Made by a program: the position numbers and the translations under genes. The notes beneath the pieces were generated by a model. It made no database searches. It saw only the letters and a program-made list of their open reading frames with translations, and was not told the DNA's origin. From a virus: DNA of 27,743 bases. Where the stretch lies: the IMG/VR virus record IMGVR_UViG_3300031857_001086, positions 1 through 27,743 of that record; one strand, 5' to 3'. Positions within the stretch are counted from its first letter, which is position 1. Each line of letters begins with the position of its first letter. This document shows, piece after piece, positions 2,506-27,005 of this stretch.

Positions 2506-3264
2506 CTACACCGCGACCCAGACCTCGGAATTTTGCGAGACCGGGGTCCATGTCTCGGACGTGTCCGGTATGTCAGTCCACGTCTCGGACGTGTCGGCCA
2601 GCTTGGTCCAGCTCTCAGCCGTGTCAGAAATTTCAGTCCACGTCTCGGGCGTGTCTGGGTCGTCGTTCCACTTGTAAGCCCCGGCGATCACGACAGACGA
2701 CTGACCCCTGTACCCAACAATCGCCTTGCGCACCCGACGGCCCAAAACAATCGTTTGCGAACTGGAAACAACCGTCACCGCCTGATTGACGATGACGTTG
2801 GAGTCGACCACGAAGATCGAATCCGACGCCACGCTTGCGGCCATGAAGGCCACCCGGATCGCGCTGATCTCGGTGCTTGACGCCGACGACACGGCACCAG
2901 CACCCAGTGCCACACGGCGGGCAGCGATTGCCACCGCTGACGTGCTGCTTACGTCACCCGCACCCAGTGCTACCCTGCGTGCGGCAAGCGCCACAGCCGA
3001 TGCGCTGGCCACAGCAGCGTTGCCGTCACACAGACGCTGCGCGGATGCGGCCATGGTGGACGTGCTGGCAACAGCCGCAGACCCAATGGCCACACGCTTT
3101 GCGTCAACAGCCGCACTGGACGTGGACGTGATCTCAAACGCGCCAAAGACAAAACGAGTCCCGCTAATGGAAGCGGAACTCGTCGCGGTGATGTCGGCAG
3201 CTCCGAGGCTGACGCCGTAGGAGTAATTGCCCCCGCCGTAGTAGCCGGAGCCGTATGCTGCCAT
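2506..3264 (-). CDS. virion appendage protein built from two tandem-repeat arrays
   Basis: A 252-residue protein with three parts. Residues 1-20 are Gly/Tyr-rich (YGSGYYGGGNYSYG). Residues 21-140 are six back-to-back 20-residue repeats with a G-[AS]-x3-[VI]-x-S-x-S pattern, most ending in [RK]-[VF] plus two hydrophobic residues; a seventh, decayed unit follows. Residues 204-252 are five 10-residue repeats of the type D-T-x-E-[TS]-W-T. A basic stretch (GRRVRK) lies between the arrays. The regular, indel-free spacing suggests a repetitive beta-type fold. The gene is in the fibre block, so a fibre or decoration role is likely. I do not recognise a named family. Confidence 0.75.
   Translation of the reverse strand: MAAYGSGYYGGGNYSYGVSLGAADITATSSASISGTRFVFGAFEITSTSSAAVDAKRVAIGSAAVASTSTMAASAQRLCDGNAAVASASAVALAARRVALGAGDVSSTSAVAIAARRVALGAGAVSSASSTEISAIRVAFMAASVASDSIFVVDSNVIVNQAVTVVSSSQTIVLGRRVRKAIVGYRGQSSVVIAGAYKWNDDPDTPETWTEISDTAESWTKLADTSETWTDIPDTSETWTPVSQNSEVWVAV
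2509..2655 (-). repeat. five in-frame 30-bp repeats encoding DTxETWT units
   Basis: Residues 204-252 of the appendage protein consist of DTPETWTEIS, DTAESWTKLA, DTSETWTDIP, DTSETWTPVS and a degenerate last unit QNSEVWVAV. On the plus strand this appears as repeated blocks of the cacgtctcgg(a/g)cgtgtc type. Each unit places one Trp at the same register. Confidence 0.88.
2845..3204 (-). repeat. six in-frame 60-bp (20-codon) repeats
   Basis: Six consecutive 20-codon units encode residues 21-140 of the appendage protein with no length variation. The two most alike units encode GNAAVASASAVALAARRVAL and GAGDVSSTSAVAIAARRVAL. Their DNA is also similar, suggesting expansion by duplication. Position-specific conservation of Gly1, the Ser/Thr pair and Arg/Val near the end is seen by direct alignment. 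Confidence 0.85.
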
Positions 3265-3265
3265 G

Positions 3266-3661
3266 TTAGGTCAGGGTGACGGTCAGGCTGGTGGCCGGGA
3301 TGCGGAACACGTCACCATCGTTGATGGTGCGGGCCGTGGTCAACTGCGCCCAAGCAATCATGTTACCGCTGGTCTCTGCATCAAAGATGGCCGCGTGGGT
3401 GATCGTGCCCCAGTTGCCACCGCTTGCAGGATCGAACTCGATGGCCGCGCTGTTGGTGGCCGTGGTGTCGGTGCCCGACACGGTGATGGTGCCGGTGGCC
3501 TTGCGGGCGTATGCGTTGCCAGAGACCTCGGTGCCACCACCTGCGTCAGATGGCGCTGCGGTGAACAAGCCCACATACCAAGCGGTCGGGCGAGTGGCCG
3601 AGCCGGTGGTCAGCAACCATGTGAGAACGAGGTTCTCGGTGTAATTGGTGAAAGAGGACAT
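3266..3661 (-). CDS. phage tail/virion protein with TRPTAWYVGLF motif
   Basis: A 131-residue protein. Residues about 23-36 read TRPTAWYVGLFTAA, a motif I recognise from a widespread family of small virion proteins in aquatic phages, usually annotated as tail fibre or hypothetical. The rest is strand-rich with alternating Thr/Ser/Ala, and includes an ATNSAAIEFDPASGGNWGTI stretch near the centre. It overlaps the adaptor gene by one base (TGATG) and sits 1 bp before the repeat-protein start. It is likely a structural component at the tail or appendage base. The exact role is not known. Confidence 0.78.
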   Translation of the reverse strand: MSSFTNYTENLVLTWLLTTGSATRPTAWYVGLFTAAPSDAGGGTEVSGNAYARKATGTITVSGTDTTATNSAAIEFDPASGGNWGTITHAAIFDAETSGNMIAWAQLTTARTINDGDVFRIPATSLTVTLT

Positions 3662-15181: not shown

Positions 15182-15865
15182 TTATGCCAGCTTCTCCAGC
15201 ACCCGCGACACCGTGACCGCCTGCCACTGGCCCTTCTTGCTGGGCGTCAGTACCCCCATGTCGTTCAAACGCTTCGCCGCCTCACGCAGACCGCCACCAG
15301 CAGCCACAGCCTCGCGCACCACGTCGGCCAACTCAGCAGCACGGCCATCGGCCTTTGCCTTGTTCGCAATCGCGGCCTTCTCCACACCCACCGCCGTGCC
15401 AGCCGCACCACGGAATCCACCGAGCTTCACGCCGCGCTCCTTGGCCTGCATTAGTGCGGCCTTCGTGCGCTCGCTGATCCGGCGTCTTTCAAACTCCGCA
15501 AACCCAGCCATCATGGTCAACTGCACCCGCCCGGTGCTGGTGGTCAGGTCCAGCTCCGGCAAATCACCAAACAAGATCGGCACGCCACTGTCGGCCAGCC
15601 CGAGGAGGAACTTGGCATCCCTCGCCAGCCGGTCCAGCTTGGCCACCACCAGCGTCCCCCCGATGTTCTTGCACAGCGTCATGGCCATGTGCAAGGCCTG
15701 TCGCTCGCAGTTGCCACCAGACTCCACCTCAGTGAACTCCTTCACCAAGCCCCAGCCACGGCTCGCCGCCATCTGCCGCACCACAGACCTCTGGTCGTCC
15801 AGCCCCAAGCCAGATCGGCCCTGCTCGTCAGTGCTCACCCGGTAGTACGCAACAACTCTTGACAT
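15182..15865 (-). CDS. resolvase/invertase-type serine recombinase
   Basis: A 227-residue protein with the full small serine-recombinase catalytic domain: AYYRVSTDEQGRSGLGLDDQ (R9 and nucleophile S11), LVVAKLDRLARDA (D78, R79, R82) and the E-helix region FAEFERRRISERTKAAL (122-138). Residues about 180-225 form a C-terminal helix-turn-helix DNA-binding part. The size fits resolvases and invertases, not large phage integrases. It probably cuts and rejoins DNA at a site nearby, perhaps the array upstream. ATG 15865 has GGAG seven bases upstream. Possible roles are genome-multimer resolution or inversion; integration is less likely. Confidence 0.9.
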   Translation of the reverse strand: MSRVVAYYRVSTDEQGRSGLGLDDQRSVVRQMAASRGWGLVKEFTEVESGGNCERQALHMAMTLCKNIGGTLVVAKLDRLARDAKFLLGLADSGVPILFGDLPELDLTTSTGRVQLTMMAGFAEFERRRISERTKAALMQAKERGVKLGGFRGAAGTAVGVEKAAIANKAKADGRAAELADVVREAVAAGGGLREAAKRLNDMGVLTPSKKGQWQAVTVSRVLEKLA

Positions 15866-16160: not shown

Positions 16161-16667
16161 TCACACGTCGATAACGGTGCTTGCTGGGCGTCTACGCAAG
16201 CTGTCCAGCGCCATGTCCCCAAGGTTCAGCGTGACTGTCGGCCCCTGCTTCTCGCCGTACACAGCCGGGTTCATCTTGCCAGCAAGCCACTTGCGGGCCT
16301 CGATGCGCAGCTTGGCCACCTGCGCCGTCTGCGGCTCTGCTTCGTCAGCAATCTGTAAGGTTTCGTCGGCCAGCGCGTCTGCCCCGGCCTCGCGTGCGCG
16401 TGAGTATGTCGATGCCCGTTCTGTACTCTTTTTGACCCAGCGGTCGAAGGCATCACTGGAAATGTCCAACAGCTCCAGCATTCGTTTCTTCGTCATCCCC
16501 CGAGCCACCATCTCGAACACGGCTAATTCGCCTCCTGCGGAGTGAATCGCTTTGTTGACCTTGGTCATCTCGAGCTTCTCAAGCTGCCCAGCCTCGGCCC
16601 GTTTCACGTGCTTCTGGACATGCGCCTCAACGAATGCCTCGTTTGAAGTCAATGCGTCTGTCGTCAT
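16161..16667 (-). CDS. terS: terminase small subunit (Sf6-like)
   Basis: A 168-residue protein. Residues about 48-80 form a helix-turn-helix (MVARGMTKKRMLELLDISSD, then FDRWVKKS). The remainder matches the Sf6-type small terminase pattern: SRAREAGADALADETLQIAD (89-108) and VAKLRIEARKWLAGKMNPAV (118-137) followed by YGEK. Such proteins recognise the packaging site as rings and hand the DNA to the large subunit. The gene overlaps the nuclease gene by ATGA. It is unusual here in lying 4.5 kb from terL with the early genes between them. Confidence 0.85.
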   Translation of the reverse strand: MTTDALTSNEAFVEAHVQKHVKRAEAGQLEKLEMTKVNKAIHSAGGELAVFEMVARGMTKKRMLELLDISSDAFDRWVKKSTERASTYSRAREAGADALADETLQIADEAEPQTAQVAKLRIEARKWLAGKMNPAVYGEKQGPTVTLNLGDMALDSLRRRPASTVIDV

Positions 16668-17026
16668 GCCAAGTACTCCTCAATCAATCGGTATGCGTCA
16701 TCCGCACCCCGTGCAACCAAACACAGATACCCTTCGGCGTTGAGCCGACCGGATATGTCCTTTTGGGCCGCACTCACGACCCCCTCAACCGTCTTCATCT
16801 CCACGAATAGCCCGTGAAACCCCCTAGAAGGCCGCAGGACGCACAGATCAGGCATACCCGCTAGTACCCCCTCACTTGCGAGCCTGACGCGCTCTGAGGC
16901 CGTTCTATCGCCTCCATTGGGTATTGCCGCAATGATAACCCCCGGATGGAAGGCGCGAACCTTTTGCACCACCTTCACCTGATCTTGGTGCTCTAAATAC
17001 TTTCGACCTCTTTTCACTCCCACCAT
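16664..17026 (-). CDS. VRR-NUC domain nuclease
   Basis: A 120-residue protein consisting almost wholly of a VRR-NUC fold of the PD-(D/E)xK superfamily: an N-terminal helix with E12, AAIPNGG (33-39), VLAGMPDL (54-61, D60), FVEMKT (74-79, E76 and K78) and Q88. These residues are the expected metal-binding and catalytic set. Stand-alone phage VRR-NUC proteins are thought to be structure-specific or Holliday-junction-type nucleases. Next to terS, it may process replication intermediates before packaging (inference). ATG 17026, inside the end of the upstream gene by 13 bp. Confidence 0.88.
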   Translation of the reverse strand: MVGVKRGRKYLEHQDQVKVVQKVRAFHPGVIIAAIPNGGDRTASERVRLASEGVLAGMPDLCVLRPSRGFHGLFVEMKTVEGVVSAAQKDISGRLNAEGYLCLVARGADDAYRLIEEYLA

Positions 17027-17355
17027 CCTGCACCCCCTTCTCGGTCACCGACCTTGCTGATCGCTGACGCGTCGCTGACGTCGCGGTAAAGGTTGCAGCG
17101 GTGCTTCAGGTCATCCGGGAAACACGGATGGTCGTTTGCTTGGCACACCCGCATCGTGTACTTAGCAGTCGCCCACCCCCGGTCAATGGTCACTATGTCA
17201 AACATCCACCGGTTGGCCTTATGGTTGACCCGCCTGATCTTTTCAAACTCATGCGCGGGCATCTGATGGACCATTTTTTCCTCCGTCCCCTCAGCACACG
17301 TTTTGCAGCTCACGCGGTCGTCGTCCACCCAGTTTTCGGTCACTTTTTGCATCAT
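17014..17355 (-). CDS. hypothetical Cys-containing protein
   Basis: With ATG 17355 (GAGG seven bases upstream) the protein has 113 residues. It has a C-x-x-C pair (VSCKTCAEG) near the N-terminus and a CQANDHPCFPDDLKHRC cluster towards the C-terminal half, so a zinc-bound structure is possible. The middle (KANRWMFDIVTIDRGWATAK) is strand-rich. It opens a short operon with the nuclease and terS. A GTG three bases upstream and another ATG three bases downstream are alternative starts. No family recognised. Confidence 0.65.
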   Translation of the reverse strand: MMQKVTENWVDDDRVSCKTCAEGTEEKMVHQMPAHEFEKIRRVNHKANRWMFDIVTIDRGWATAKYTMRVCQANDHPCFPDDLKHRCNLYRDVSDASAISKVGDREGGAGWWE

Positions 17356-17405
17356 CACTTTTCCTCACTTTTTCATGTTGCCTATTTTTTAAGCAAAACA
17401 CCCCA

Positions 17406-17457
17406 AAAGTTGAAGGGACGCCCCAAAGGGGTTTGGTCCCTTCGTCCCTTCAACTTT
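17406..17457. repeat. 15-bp perfect inverted repeat
   Basis: AAAGTTGAAGGGACG (17406-17420) and its exact complement CGTCCCTTCAACTTT (17443-17457), with a 22-bp spacer that contains a further CCCC-AAA-GGGG hairpin. Each arm contains one copy of the same 11-mer (CGTCCCTTCAA) that recurs as iterons at 17560-17621. Confidence 0.85.
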
Positions 17458-17460
17458 GCC

Positions 17461-17469
17461 TGTGGATAA
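17461..17469 (-). promoter_or_regulatory. DnaA box TTATCCACA
   Basis: The minus strand reads TTATCCACA, identical to the high-affinity consensus bound by the host initiator DnaA. It sits between the large inverted repeat and the hairpin, in the candidate origin. Confidence 0.65.
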
Positions 17470-17509
17470 CTTTTCCCATTTTGTAGGACCAAGGGCCACA
17501 TTCGCGCTG

Positions 17510-17540
17510 TCCAAATGGGGGCTAAGGCCCCCATATTGGA
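17510..17540. other. strong G/C hairpin in candidate origin
   Basis: TCCAA and ATGGGGGC pair with GCCCCCAT and TTGGA around a TAAG loop with one bulged A, 13 pairs in all. No T-run follows on either strand, so it is probably not an ordinary terminator. Origin cruciform or RNA-processing roles are open. Confidence 0.7.
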
Positions 17541-17559
17541 CCAGCTCTTCACGATAATG

Positions 17560-17621
17560 TCGAAGGGACCGTCCCCTCAACGTCCCCTCAACGTCCCCTC
17601 GTCCCCTCAACGTCCTGTCAA
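17560..17621. repeat. iteron cluster, 11-bp CGTCCCCTCAA units
   Basis: Direct copies at 17570-17580, 17581-17591, 17592-17599 (truncated), 17600-17610 and 17611-17621 (CGTCCTGTCAA), preceded by an inverted variant TCGAAGGGACC at 17560-17570. Further copies lie in the inverted repeat at 17410-17420 and 17443-17453. An 11-bp period places units on the same helical face. Confidence 0.8.
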
Positions 17622-17640
17622 GCACTTGGTGGACCATAAA

Positions 17641-19875
17641 TCAGCCCAACTTGACCCAGCCACTGGCCGGTGCATCTGGCGCGAATCTGGAGAAAACGGC
17701 GGTGCCAACCGCTCGTTTTACATCCCCTCTGGATGACCCCGGCACGTGCTCAAACACGTCATCCCAATGCAGCTGGTGGCAGGTCTTGTAGTCGCTCGGG
17801 ATGGTCCTTGATGCCGTCGATCCGCGCCGAATAATCACCCCCTCTGGGTGGTCATTGAGCACGGATTGGACGTAGGAACAGGCCTCATCGGCCTTGTCCA
17901 TGGCACGTTGAGATTGTTTTTCCTGTTTACTTTCTTCTGCGTTTTGTTGTCTGTCTGTCTTGGAGGACTCGGTGGGCGTCACGGTGATGCAGACCACATC
18001 TTGAAGTTTTCCGTACTTGGAGATGGTCACCTCATTGTTGACGTGGGTTTGGAATTTCAGTTCTGTGATCAGTGGCTGGTACCGCTTCTTGACCAGCGTC
18101 ATGAACCGCTCCTCTTGGTCGATGAAGAGGGTCGCCGTTAATGTTGCGTTGCCGGTCCATGCGGAGGCGCCACGGGCAGTGGCCGTGTCGTCACTTGTTG
18201 AGAGTGACTTGGCGGTGTGTGTGACGATGGCAATCGGCGTATTGAGCTTGGTAAAGAGGGTCTGCTTGATGCCCTCCATGTAGATGGCCACCTCGGAGTT
18301 GTTGTTCTCGTCCTCAATGTCGAAAGTCGCGGATGCCGTGTCGAGGATCAGGTACGGGCGCAGGGTATGGCCTTCATGTGTTGTCGTGTGCTTGAGGATG
18401 TTTTGTGTGAGCAGCAGGATGTCGGGCATCTCGGATCGGCGTGCCTCGACGACGTGGATCATCTCTTTGATTTGTTGTGGGTCGAGGTGGTGGTGCCGTG
18501 CGTAGCTGAAGAGGGAAAGCTGGACTTGGGAGACATCTTCCGTGACGTAGATCACCCGTCTGGGTGCCTCGGTGGAGAGGCTGCAGTCCTTCAGGGTGAA
18601 GCCCGCGATCACCATGGCCAGAGAGAGCATGGCGGTGGTCTTGCCCACACCGGGCTGGCCCGCGACGACCATCAAACTGTGGGCCAAGAAGTTGTCGATC
18701 AGGTAATCAATGGGGTGCAGGGTATTGAGGTCCAGATCGACCTCCTGCCAGATGGATGGCGGCTGGTCGGGCTGGGAGACAAATGGCTGGTTTATTTCTA
18801 ACGGGTCGGACAGGTCGATTAGTGCCGGGGCCGTCTTTTGGATGAAGCTGTTGAAGTCCTCGATGGCCGACTTCCGCTCCGTCTTGGTGGTGGGCGGGGT
18901 GTAGCCGTGGGCCTTCGCCAAGTGGAACAACGTGCCAAGGGAGGTGGCCCCGTTGGGCTTAAAGCTCTTCCAGTGGGCCTTGCAGTCCTCCTCGCCCTTG
19001 AACTCGGGCTGGGATGATGACCACTGCACCCACATCTGGTAGCCTGCGGCGCCAAACCCGTGTTGTAACGCCATGCCCATGTCGATCCACGTCTGGTAGT
19101 CGCCCTTGGCTATTGCGATGTAGGACAGTGCCTGCTGGGCCTTGTCCATGTCGTCCATGGGCCTTGGGCTGTACTCGATGGCCTGTGTTGTAACAGGCTG
19201 AATGGCCGGTGCTGGCTCTGGCGGGAAGATCACGTCGTCGGTGATGCCTGCTTTATGGAGCAGCTCGATCAGGCTGGTGATGGGCTTGACCTCGCCCTTG
19301 AGCTTGTCACCGGTGAGCATCACGCTCTTGCCTGCGCTGTTGGCAAGGCCAAAGATTTCGATCTCTTGGCTGTTGCCCAGCTTGATGCGCTTGGGTGCCG
19401 CCTCGTCGGCTGGCGACAGGAACATGATGTGGCCACCCTTCATGGAGTGGGACCGCTCGGTCAGCAGGTCCATGTCTCTGGCCAGCTCCAGCAGCTTGGC
19501 GATGCGTATGTCGCGGGGTGCTGTGCTGTTCTTGGTGTCGAGGTCAAGGATCACGAAGGCGTGGTCTTGGCCGTCGATCTGGGTGATGTAGGGCTGCTTC
19601 TGCAGCACCACGCCCCAGTAGGTGGCGTTGGAAGGTGGTGGCTCGTGGGCCAGCACGTCCTCGGTGTCGCACAGGTACTCTTGTGGGGTGTCGGCGCCCA
19701 CACCGGGGCCGGTAAGGCTCATGGGGCGCTTGGTGACCCTACCCCCTTGGGTGCTGACGTTAAAGCCGCAGAACCGTGCTGTGGGCACGGTGCGGGCTAT
19801 ATGTGCGGCGGCAGCGAGGGACAGCGCAGTCGTGTCTTGGGCTGGTAAAATTGACCCGCCACTTGTTTCATTCAT
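17641..19875 (-). CDS. primase-polymerase / hexameric helicase replication protein
   Basis: Using ATG 19875 (GGAG eight bases upstream; the ATG at 19950 has a poor site) the protein has 744 residues. An archaeo-eukaryotic-type PrimPol domain comes first: FVILDLDTK with D111 and D113, HSMKGGHIMF with H149, and EIEIF (171-175) before MLTGD. A PriCT-2-like domain covers about 245-325 (IDMGMALQHG, SLGTLFHLAKAHGY). The C-terminal helicase is RecA/RepA-like with Walker A AGQPGVGKTT (405-414), Walker B LILD (D512) and IVTHTAKS (550-557). Such proteins prime, and some also elongate, DNA while unwinding it. The candidate origin lies directly behind the gene. Confidence 0.88.
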   Translation of the reverse strand: MNETSGGSILPAQDTTALSLAAAAHIARTVPTARFCGFNVSTQGGRVTKRPMSLTGPGVGADTPQEYLCDTEDVLAHEPPPSNATYWGVVLQKQPYITQIDGQDHAFVILDLDTKNSTAPRDIRIAKLLELARDMDLLTERSHSMKGGHIMFLSPADEAAPKRIKLGNSQEIEIFGLANSAGKSVMLTGDKLKGEVKPITSLIELLHKAGITDDVIFPPEPAPAIQPVTTQAIEYSPRPMDDMDKAQQALSYIAIAKGDYQTWIDMGMALQHGFGAAGYQMWVQWSSSQPEFKGEEDCKAHWKSFKPNGATSLGTLFHLAKAHGYTPPTTKTERKSAIEDFNSFIQKTAPALIDLSDPLEINQPFVSQPDQPPSIWQEVDLDLNTLHPIDYLIDNFLAHSLMVVAGQPGVGKTTAMLSLAMVIAGFTLKDCSLSTEAPRRVIYVTEDVSQVQLSLFSYARHHHLDPQQIKEMIHVVEARRSEMPDILLLTQNILKHTTTHEGHTLRPYLILDTASATFDIEDENNNSEVAIYMEGIKQTLFTKLNTPIAIVTHTAKSLSTSDDTATARGASAWTGNATLTATLFIDQEERFMTLVKKRYQPLITELKFQTHVNNEVTISKYGKLQDVVCITVTPTESSKTDRQQNAEESKQEKQSQRAMDKADEACSYVQSVLNDHPEGVIIRRGSTASRTIPSDYKTCHQLHWDDVFEHVPGSSRGDVKRAVGTAVFSRFAPDAPASGWVKLG

Positions 19876-19950
19876 GAGTGGTTCTCCGGTTGAGTTGCTT
19901 GATGAACCCGTCCAGTTCGCGCTGGCCGGGTTCTTTTTTGGAGTGGCCAT
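19868..19950 (-). other. candidate 27-aa ORF needing -1 frameshift at A-AAA-AAG
   Basis: ATG 19950 starts MATPKK, and its fifth and sixth codons form the slippery heptamer A-AAA-AAG in the correct phase. A -1 slip continues as EPGQRELDGFIKQLNRRTTHE and stops at TGA 19868, overlapping the PrimPol start codon region (ATGAATGA). The unshifted frame is low-complexity (ASANWTGSSSNSTG) and fuses with PrimPol. Alternatively one A is missing from the assembled sequence. The ORF begins one base after the upstream stop. Confidence 0.35.
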
Positions 19951-24454: not shown

Positions 24455-24684
24455 GCACCTTAGATGATCGGGTCCAACAGGCCCAAGACCACCTATCCTC
24501 AATTGCAGAGGACGGATCGTACATACACGACATCATTGAGCTTCTTGATGAGCTGTATGCGTTGCAGCATCAAGCACAGCAGCATCACGAGACGCCCTAT
24601 GTGTCAGCGTCCCGTGACGAGCAGCGCAAGGCCCAAATTGCCTATGGCAAAAGGTGCGCTGCTTGGGCCAGTCACTCCTCTTGA
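24451..24684 (+). CDS. hypothetical helical protein
   Basis: A 77-residue protein with an amphipathic helix-rich sequence (DRVQQAQDHLSSIAEDGSYI, IHDIIELLDELYALQHQAQQ) and a polar C-terminus. Start ATGA-coupled to the winged-helix gene. Its last 13 bp lie antisense inside the end of the converging virion gene. Confidence 0.7.
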   Translation: MSTLDDRVQQAQDHLSSIAEDGSYIHDIIELLDELYALQHQAQQHHETPYVSASRDEQRKAQIAYGKRCAAWASHSS

Positions 24685-27005
24685 CCGGCCATGCTGGTGA
24701 TGGAGTAGCCCATCGCGGCCAGCGCGGCGGCAGGGGTTGCGCCAGCGCGGATCATTTTCACAGCCTTGTTCCAATCGGCTTCCGACAAGAACTTGCGCAT
24801 GTTTTGAATGTCGTCTCTTGCGCCGCCAGCCGCGGCGTCGCGGGCTGTGATTTTTCCAATAGCCGACCGGACGCCCTCTGACTCGCTCAAGTTTGCCGCA
24901 ACTTCTGGCGGTGCCTTGGCCAATGCCTCAAGGAGTCCACCGGTTGCTTCACCACTGAACGGCGCGGTTGGAACCACCTCCCCTGCTTCGTTAAATTTCC
25001 CGATGCCGGGAAAGTACCCCGAGCTTGTGACGCCCTTAGAAAGGTCTCCGGGTATCAAGTCTAGGAGGCTGTTTTGCGAAGACTTCAGGACCGCTTGCAA
25101 GTTTTTTGGAGTAGCACCCTCGTCGAACGGGTGAATCAAAGCGCCACGAGACGTGGCAGTAAGACCGTAGCCTTGTGGGTTGAGCATTTTGTTGCCCTCT
25201 GCCAAAGCCTGTGCAGACGGCATGACACCTGTGGTGGCGCTGTTGTTCAATGCGCGTGAGTCAATAACAGCAGAGTTTTTCCCAGACACGCCGCCCATGG
25301 TATTTGGCAGGTTCCAAGCACCAGCCTCTTGCGCATCAACAGCAGCACGCAAACGCTCTGCTGAGTTCATTGCATCGACGCGTGTGTCAGCAACACGACC
25401 GCCACCACCACCGGTGGGGAAGTCGAGCAAAGGCCGTGCAATGACCATTGGGTTTGATTCCATGACCCCTTGGCTGTTTATGTACGCGCCAGTTGCATCA
25501 ACCGGAGGCAGTTGGCGCATACCAAGTGCGCTGTAGATAACGTCTTTGTCGCCGCCATCAACAGCAAGCGGAGCGTTCCATGACCCGGCCTTGGTGTATG
25601 CCAGTTTGTCTTCAGGGCTTGCGTTAAGCATTTGTGGAACGTGCCCAGTAGACGCGCCGGGGATTGATTCATGCGTTGCCGATGCAGCATGCTTGTACAA
25701 ATAATCCTCAAACGTGTTGTTGGCGTCAACAATGGACTGCTTGATTGCTGCCGCCTCGTTTCCGCCAAAGTGTTTGGCAGCGTTGTAACGACCAGTTGGC
25801 CCAGAGCCGCGTGAATATAAATCTTGAGCTTTGCCAAGAACCCAAGGCACTTCTTGCAAGTGCGGGCCACTCCAGTCGGCACGGCCACCGACGTTGGCCG
25901 TGTTTGCTCTGTTAACCAGCAGCGCGGTTTCTGCATCCATAAAAGGGTGCATCGTGTTGCTGACGCCACCGGTCCAAATAGAACCGTCTGGGTTGGTGTA
26001 TCCAAACCCTTGTGCCGCACGAAAATCGTTGACGCCAAACAGCCCGGTGTTGGGCACGTTCGGGTCATTCTTTGCACGATACTCGCCAATCTTAAAACCC
26101 AGACGAGGCATTCTGTCCTGCTGGACTGCGTTGTCCAAGTTGTTCATTGGAGTGCTTCGGTACGCCATGTCGGGCATACCAAGCTGACGGGATACTTGAT
26201 GCTTCAAAGCAAAGCCAAGCTCAGACTCGGGTGACACACCTGCGCTGTAAACAGAGTGCTGGTTGAGCGACTGTGAGAGCTGGTACGGCTCGTTGGTCTG
26301 CGCTTGCGCCGCTTTTGCTCGGTCGTACCATGTGCCGGTTCGGTTTGGGTCGGCAGATTTAAGGGCATCAACGCCAGACGCAAACTGCTGGTCCAAATCC
26401 TGACGCATGCGGCCAAGAGCTTGAGGGCTTGATACGGTGCGGGGTGCGCCAATGTATCCACCATAGCCATCTGGCTTAAGGTGGGCACCTTGTTGGGCCT
26501 GACGAAGAACCTCCGCGTCGCCGCTGGTCGCCGCCATCTGTCGGTAAACGTCAGGGTCCACGCGTTGAGACTTGCCTGTTTTTACTCTTTCTTTGGGGTC
26601 TGATTTTTCGGCTTGCTTGACCTTCTTTTTCAGCTTCGCTTCACGAGCGGCTTTAGTCCCAAACAGGTCAACAATCGCCTTGTCTTCAACGCTCAAATTT
26701 TGCACAGGTATTTCGGTTACCTTTTTTGCAGCCTTTGCCGCCTTGCTGCCAGCACGCGCTGTCTTGCCAGCGGTGGTCGCGGCCTTGACGGTCATGCCAA
26801 CTGGGGGGACGATCATCAGCGCATCACCAGCCGCTCCAGCCAATTGCAGCATCGCGTCGATGTACTGCTTGTTGCGGATGTTCTGCCAGAGGTTTGGCCC
26901 CATGCCACCGCCAATGGCTGGGGCTTGGCCGATAACATCCATCAAGCCAGAGCCGGGGAGAAGCCCAGAGGCGATGGCCGTTGCGTCGTAGAGTCTTGGG
27001 TCCAT
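24672..27005 (-). CDS. large internal-virion / ejection-type protein
   Basis: A 777-residue protein with no enzyme motif found by eye. It starts MDPRLYDATAIASGLLPGSG, followed by an Ala/Gly-rich hydrophobic helix region (residues about 50-80), a Lys-rich stretch (about 85-150) and a long Gln/Asn/Gly-rich body that is poorly structured in appearance. Such large, low-complexity, helix-containing proteins are common as internal virion proteins of podovirus-like phages, where they are ejected with the DNA. Their family ties are weak, so assignment rests on length, composition and the adjacent similar gene. It is 3 bp from the upstream gene and converges with the plus-strand cassette with a 13-bp overlap and no terminator. 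Confidence 0.65.
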   Translation of the reverse strand: MDPRLYDATAIASGLLPGSGLMDVIGQAPAIGGGMGPNLWQNIRNKQYIDAMLQLAGAAGDALMIVPPVGMTVKAATTAGKTARAGSKAAKAAKKVTEIPVQNLSVEDKAIVDLFGTKAAREAKLKKKVKQAEKSDPKERVKTGKSQRVDPDVYRQMAATSGDAEVLRQAQQGAHLKPDGYGGYIGAPRTVSSPQALGRMRQDLDQQFASGVDALKSADPNRTGTWYDRAKAAQAQTNEPYQLSQSLNQHSVYSAGVSPESELGFALKHQVSRQLGMPDMAYRSTPMNNLDNAVQQDRMPRLGFKIGEYRAKNDPNVPNTGLFGVNDFRAAQGFGYTNPDGSIWTGGVSNTMHPFMDAETALLVNRANTANVGGRADWSGPHLQEVPWVLGKAQDLYSRGSGPTGRYNAAKHFGGNEAAAIKQSIVDANNTFEDYLYKHAASATHESIPGASTGHVPQMLNASPEDKLAYTKAGSWNAPLAVDGGDKDVIYSALGMRQLPPVDATGAYINSQGVMESNPMVIARPLLDFPTGGGGGRVADTRVDAMNSAERLRAAVDAQEAGAWNLPNTMGGVSGKNSAVIDSRALNNSATTGVMPSAQALAEGNKMLNPQGYGLTATSRGALIHPFDEGATPKNLQAVLKSSQNSLLDLIPGDLSKGVTSSGYFPGIGKFNEAGEVVPTAPFSGEATGGLLEALAKAPPEVAANLSESEGVRSAIGKITARDAAAGGARDDIQNMRKFLSEADWNKAVKMIRAGATPAAALAAMGYSITSMAGQEE

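Follow-up and report, generated by a model that had tools for sequence, protein, structure and literature searches.

In phage P4, the α protein binds the repeats of its origin through a winged-helix domain (PMC4234260). For the PrimQH family, the C-terminal domain was suggested by the authors as a possible recognizer of the origin, and iterons are not mentioned in that paper (PMC5862659). A few satellites and cassettes are known in which the DNA-binding domain of an initiator covaries with the iterons, e.g., PLE, of which only cognate RepA-ori pairs were found by experiment to replicate (PMC8263062). Here we describe a comparable arrangement in a 27.7-kb IMG/VR fragment (the whole stretch of DNA analyzed, referred to as the window), which encodes SU10-type portal and capsid proteins. 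A block of 282 bp lies in it between the gene for a PrimPol-helicase and a small gene whose product is rich in Cys; both are on the minus strand, and 3′ of the small gene there follow a VRR-NUC nuclease gene and then the small terminase gene. The block very probably serves a tailed phage as its replication origin and is located directly 3′ of the phage's own primase-helicase gene. The features referred to below are:

16161–16667, gene for the small terminase (TerS), two genes downstream of the block
17014–17358, minus strand, gene for the small Cys-rich (CxxC) protein, with an extra iteron in its 5′ part and in some relatives also DnaA boxes
17285–17295 (17284–17294 in the register of the first-pass annotation), minus strand, extra iteron copy GCTGAGGGGAC within the coding sequence of this gene
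17366–17400, AT-rich segment by sequence, possibly an unwinding element
17409–17454, iteron cluster B, with a unit at 17444–17454 (minus), a truncated unit at 17436–17443 (minus), a loop with CCCCTTTGGGG and an inverted unit at 17409–17419 (plus)
17461–17469, minus strand, perfect DnaA box TTATCCACA
17509–17541, hairpin with a stem of 13 pairs, located between cluster A and the DnaA box
17559–17622, minus strand, iteron cluster A, with the canonical unit GTTGAGGGGAC on the minus strand; in the register of this unit, full units at 17612–17622, 17601–17611, 17582–17592 and 17571–17581, a truncated unit at 17593–17600 and an inverted unit at 17559–17569
17641–19950, minus strand, gene for the PrimPol-helicase (769 amino acids; Pfam, PHROG and AF2 model), the proposed initiator
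17644–17955, minus strand, C-terminal domain of the PrimPol-helicase (residues 666–769), the proposed iteron-binding domain (partial correlation and natural swaps)
17683–17727, minus strand, predicted helix (residues 742–756), the proposed recognition helix (AF2 models and class-tracking positions)

The first-pass annotation, made from the sequence of the window alone, had reported at least seven copies of an 11-bp unit in the block. There are seven full units (in its register 17410–17420 (−), 17443–17453 (+), 17560–17570 (−), 17570–17580 (+), 17581–17591 (+), 17600–17610 (+) and 17611–17621 (+)) and two truncated units of 8 bp (17593–17600 and 17436–17443). What had been described as five tandem units at 17570–17621 is thus four full units and one truncated to 8 bp, with start spacings of 11, 11, 8, and 11. 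The other elements were found as described, namely the full inverted 11-mer at 17560–17570, the DnaA box between the repeats, the hairpin, the AT-rich segment (of which TTAAAAAATAGG is retained in the relative L009) and the two units that form the arms of a 15-bp perfect inverted repeat (17406–17420/17443–17457), to which the arms of cluster B reach out. The best 11-mer family in the block has 7 copies (at most two mismatches, both strands), as compared to a maximum of 5 in 287 equally long control windows and in 500 shuffles that preserve the dinucleotides. Outside the block matches to the 11-mer occur at about chance level, the exception being the copy at 17284–17294 in the next gene. Rfam and tRNA searches gave no match.

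The PrimPol-helicase is composed of an AEP primase-polymerase domain (residues ~75–240), a PriCT-2 domain (272–345), a RecA-fold helicase domain of the RepA/DnaB type (~401–620) and a C-terminal domain (666–769). It matches the Pfam families PriCT_2 (2e-19) and AAA_25 (3e-15) and a PHROG of primases, and its AF2 model matches in the PDB the NrS-1 PrimPol (2.7e-8) and a DnaB-type helicase (2r6a; 1.8e-4). The residues D136/D138, S169, H174, and E198 are invariant. In one relative (L008) the primase is a mosaic, residues 70–320 being 92–98% identical to the window protein and the remainder mostly 33–58%, which suggests recombination within this gene. Elsewhere in the window there is a gene for a small serine recombinase (resolvase) at 15182–15865, of which the block might conceivably be a res site and which has a counterpart at a similar position in MW202879, and a 777-amino-acid open reading frame at 24672–27005 without a Pfam match.

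Scans of viral contigs yielded 80 relatives plus the circular record MW202879, with identities of 39–99%; counts given below out of 59 refer to dereplicated loci, and for the number of iteron copies 1,593 windows served as controls. The same plan is found 3′ of the primase stop codon in about 80 related loci: cluster A has a full unit followed by a truncated one, then two further full units and an inverted unit, it is followed by the hairpin and DnaA boxes and then by cluster B (full unit, truncated unit, loop, inverted unit), and the last element is a further iteron copy inside the next gene. Four or more iteron copies are present in 55 of the 59 loci but in only 31 of the 1,593 control windows. 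The expectation that the repeats recur behind homologous primase genes was therefore borne out for the layout, but not for the 11-mer itself, which varies between clades. A hairpin stem of at least 10 pairs, variable in sequence, is found in 90% of the relatives versus 4% of control windows. A perfect DnaA box lies on the strand of the primase gene in 50 of the 59 loci and is never reversed there, as compared to 54 DnaA boxes elsewhere in these loci (597 kb); L008 and some others are without a perfect box. More distant relatives of the helicase (L011–L017, L125, L014) show a plan of this kind, built from other units, whereas no iterons were found behind the primase gene of seven other, distant PrimPol-type phages (GB2A, Torfinnsbu, phiHSIC, Sa179lw, VHML, RS51pmB, and CASP1). 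It should be mentioned that Escherichia phage Sa179lw (L118, ~3150–3500) has five 11-mer copies upstream, rather than downstream, of its primase gene, and that a contig from a Hydrogenophilaceae MAG (L095, 9600–9880) carries a AGGTTGGGAAG array directly 3′ of a PrimPol-PriCT gene with phage-like genes nearby, possibly a prophage origin built along the same lines. The hypothetical protein UOF82893.1, annotated across the iteron origin of MW202879 (L018; 3078–3311), is probably not the product of a real gene.

When 2.9 million viral contigs were searched for the tandem patterns of two iteron types, 44 contigs matched, and in all 41 with enough upstream sequence the 3′ end of the primase gene was directly upstream of the iterons. 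Stray arrays of these two types, which would have marked hijacking satellites, were not found among these 41 contigs. A search of a plasmid collection gave only weak and partial matches in 15 records and thus no plasmid relative of the whole PrimPol-helicase.

In all nine near-complete records the GC skew has its minimum at the 3′ end of the primase gene or at the block; in MW202879 it is at 3522 (block at ~3078–3301) and in the window at 17844, so that in none of them does it lie elsewhere, as it might have if the origin were at another site. In the window the third-codon GC skew changes its sign at the block, the flanking genes being all on the minus strand. As in iteron origins, short direct repeats are clustered, above chance, beside the gene of a putative initiator and next to a DnaA box and an AT-rich stretch. 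Together, the conserved layout and the skew minimum, which is indirect evidence for a start of replication at this site, support the first-pass interpretation as a plasmid-like iteron origin.

Although the scaffold is constant, the sequence of the iterons is not. There are altogether 12 iteron classes; the unit GTTGAGGGGAC of the window is represented in relatives by GTCGAAGGGAC, GTCGACCGGAC, GTCGATCGGAC, GTCGRRGATAC, GTCGGMGSGAC, GTCGGGTGGCC, GTAATCCGGTA and GTAAACCGGTA, CTAATGCGGAA, CTAATAGTTGG, TCAAGGGGTG (with a pitch of 10), or GATATGGGGAC. On the helicase tree parsimony gives 18 class changes, or 17 once the mislabelled row of L018 is merged with its class, numbers that are approximate because the classes were assigned by pattern. 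Cluster B differs from cluster A of its own locus by 16% mismatches and from that of other loci by 46%. The coding copy has at most one mismatch to the iterons of its own locus in 43 of the 59 loci, which is the case in only 5% of the comparisons with foreign iterons; the copy at 17284–17294 thus turned out to belong to the iteron system. Judged by these comparisons, all copies of one origin, the coding copy included, change together. In several relatives there are DnaA boxes, besides the iteron, within the 5′ coding part of the CxxC gene, and the N-terminus of the protein (LSTGYPQ) is thus shaped by the origin sequence. Some origins contain two iteron types at once (L026, L038), and within one clade of near-identical helicases three iteron classes are interleaved. 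Neither the turnover of the iterons nor the copy inside the downstream gene had been foreseen in the first-pass annotation.

Which protein reads the iterons was addressed by rank correlation of iteron distance with protein distance, the helicase segment 521–620 being held fixed (partial Mantel test). The partial rho was 0.53–0.60 for the C-terminal domain of the PrimPol-helicase, the highest of all segments and neighbors tested, a value to be read with the reservations that the test removes shared ancestry incompletely and that linkage inflates the correlation, since this domain is the primase segment nearest to the block. It was 0.35–0.44 for the helicase segment 401–520, 0.01–0.16 for the primase domain and 0.27 for the VRR nuclease (at most 0.10 with the C-terminal domain held fixed), and near zero for TerS, the exonuclease, the SNF2 helicase, SSB, and a 123-amino-acid early protein. 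The adjacent downstream protein, which is encoded on the other side of the block, gave only 0.15–0.25 (0.01–0.10 with the C-terminal domain held fixed), which argues against pure linkage.

Natural swaps point in the same direction. Between L037 and L038 the primase and helicase segments differ by 0–3%, residues 716–769 by 20%, and the cluster A iterons are different, as are patches of DNA elsewhere in the block. Conversely, L049 and L074 differ by 34–70% in the primase and helicase segments but by only 4–6% in the C-terminal domain and have the same cluster A iterons; they also share the downstream protein. Among 25 near-identical proteins that form one clade, the 25 columns tracking the iteron class most closely include 17 from the C-terminal domain, among them 742, 747, 748, 749, and 750 in the predicted helix 742–756. 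An AT-hook-like GxGRP motif accompanies TAA-type iterons (28 loci) and is absent from all 46 loci of the TCG/TTG type, an association that is no more than suggestive because only two to three independent switches contribute to it. The model of the C-terminal domain consists of helices and strands (pLDDT 89); a fold search of the PDB found no match, so that a winged helix is at most a possibility, and PDB sequence searches with the domain and with the whole protein gave nothing significant. In a viral library the fold matched nothing but a single phage AAA protein, which is presumably homologous. The replacement of the iterons some 17 times on a fixed layout thus points to the C-terminal end of the PrimPol-helicase as their reader, to which the iterons would bind, and the proposal that this protein is the initiator is favored by the covariation.

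It could also be that the block is the origin and that its iterons are read by another protein, e.g., the downstream CxxC protein, a small HTH or ribbon-helix-helix protein or a host factor. A separate iteron binder does exist in RSF1010, where it is RepC (PMC4234260), and the downstream gene adjoins cluster B and bears an iteron copy. We nevertheless consider this unlikely. In L037 and L038 the part of the downstream protein that was compared (after the CxxC) is identical despite the different cluster A iterons, and the difference is confined to the short N-terminal stretch that precedes the CxxC; as a driver of the turnover the downstream protein is also disfavored by the partial correlations. 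A RepC-like gene was not found among the proteins scanned, and the neighbors that were compared do not track the iterons. A host factor would leave the concerted turnover along the phage tree unexplained.

Much less likely still is that the block has no role as origin and that its repeats serve as an operator array, by which the primase-helicase or a regulator would control how the downstream genes are transcribed. It is true that the genes on either side of the block share one direction of transcription and that a repressor, too, would drive a coordinated change of the iterons. However, such an array accounts neither for the skew minimum in all nine near-complete records nor for the DnaA boxes in 50 of 59 loci, and a simple scan found no sigma-70-like promoter inside the block. 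The data leave room for a dual role of the block in autoregulation and as origin. That the block is a packaging initiation site (pac/cos) read by the small terminase is the least probable reading of all, for although the TerS gene is near and terminase sites can contain repeats near terS, the divergence of TerS is unrelated to the iteron type (partial rho −0.008), which is not the co-evolution of a pac site with its terminase, and DnaA boxes and a skew minimum are not expected there.

We thus favor, with a probability of roughly 0.8, that the block is a phage replication origin working with the adjacent gene as a self-contained initiator-iteron module. Since clusters A and B flank the hairpin and the host DnaA box or boxes, several initiators would assemble on both sides of these. 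Aided by host DnaA at its box, they may then open the AT-rich stretch or the hairpin. The RepA/DnaB-like helicase domain would be loaded next, the archaeo-eukaryotic primase domain would lay the first primers, probably on the exposed strands of the stem-loop, and forks would depart in both directions.

Two things are new, namely how often the iterons have been replaced on a constant scaffold within a single phage lineage, and the presence of an iteron copy inside a coding gene. At least seven putative binding sites, one of which lies within a protein-coding gene, have to change along with the initiator. It is conceivable, albeit doubtful, that the specificity turns over fast under antagonistic selection, in that a known iteron type is exploited or cut by co-infecting phages, satellites or origin-targeting nucleases; new pairs in which iterons and C-terminal domain fit each other might, just as tentatively, then be favored. 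An argument for antagonism has been made in the case of PLE and its nuclease Odn (PMC8263062). If it were to apply here, the origin would act as a replication identity tag, and the interleaved classes and mixed origins would be snapshots of switches. In any case, the 12 iteron classes, some of them separating proteins that differ almost only in residues 716–769, provide a natural experiment on the change of initiator specificity.

The module shares features with several known systems. The oriV of RSF1010 (IncQ) also has iterons and stem-loops (ssi) that are served by a primase and a helicase of the RepA type (PMC4234260), but in three separate proteins and with the iterons read by RepC. With P4 α it has in common the logic that one protein is responsible for priming, helicase activity and, putatively here, binding of the origin repeats; however, P4 α has a bacterial-type Toprim primase (PMC4234260), in place of which there is an AEP PrimPol domain together with a RepA/DnaB-like RecA-fold helicase. 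In SaPI Rep and SCCmec Cch2, the C-terminal domain of the helicase recognizes iterons directly 3′ of its gene (PMC7581432), as is predicted here, the difference being that their helicase is separate from the primase and that they belong to satellites and chromosomal cassettes rather than to a phage genome. As in the RepA-ori of PLE, the DNA-binding domain of the initiator appears to covary with the origin and modules are swapped, although PLE is a satellite with a RepA_N protein, iterons of ~30 bp and two described module groups (PMC8263062). The pRN1 replicon likewise encodes an AEP-helicase replication protein, the gene of which is immediately followed by the origin, and the structure of this origin is more conserved than its sequence (PMC4234260). 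By the order of its domains (AEP, then PriCT, then a P-loop helicase of the RepA/DnaB type, and a C-terminal domain), the protein resembles the PrimQH type (PMC5862659), and what was a guess for the C-terminal domain of that family becomes a concrete binding hypothesis with named sequences.
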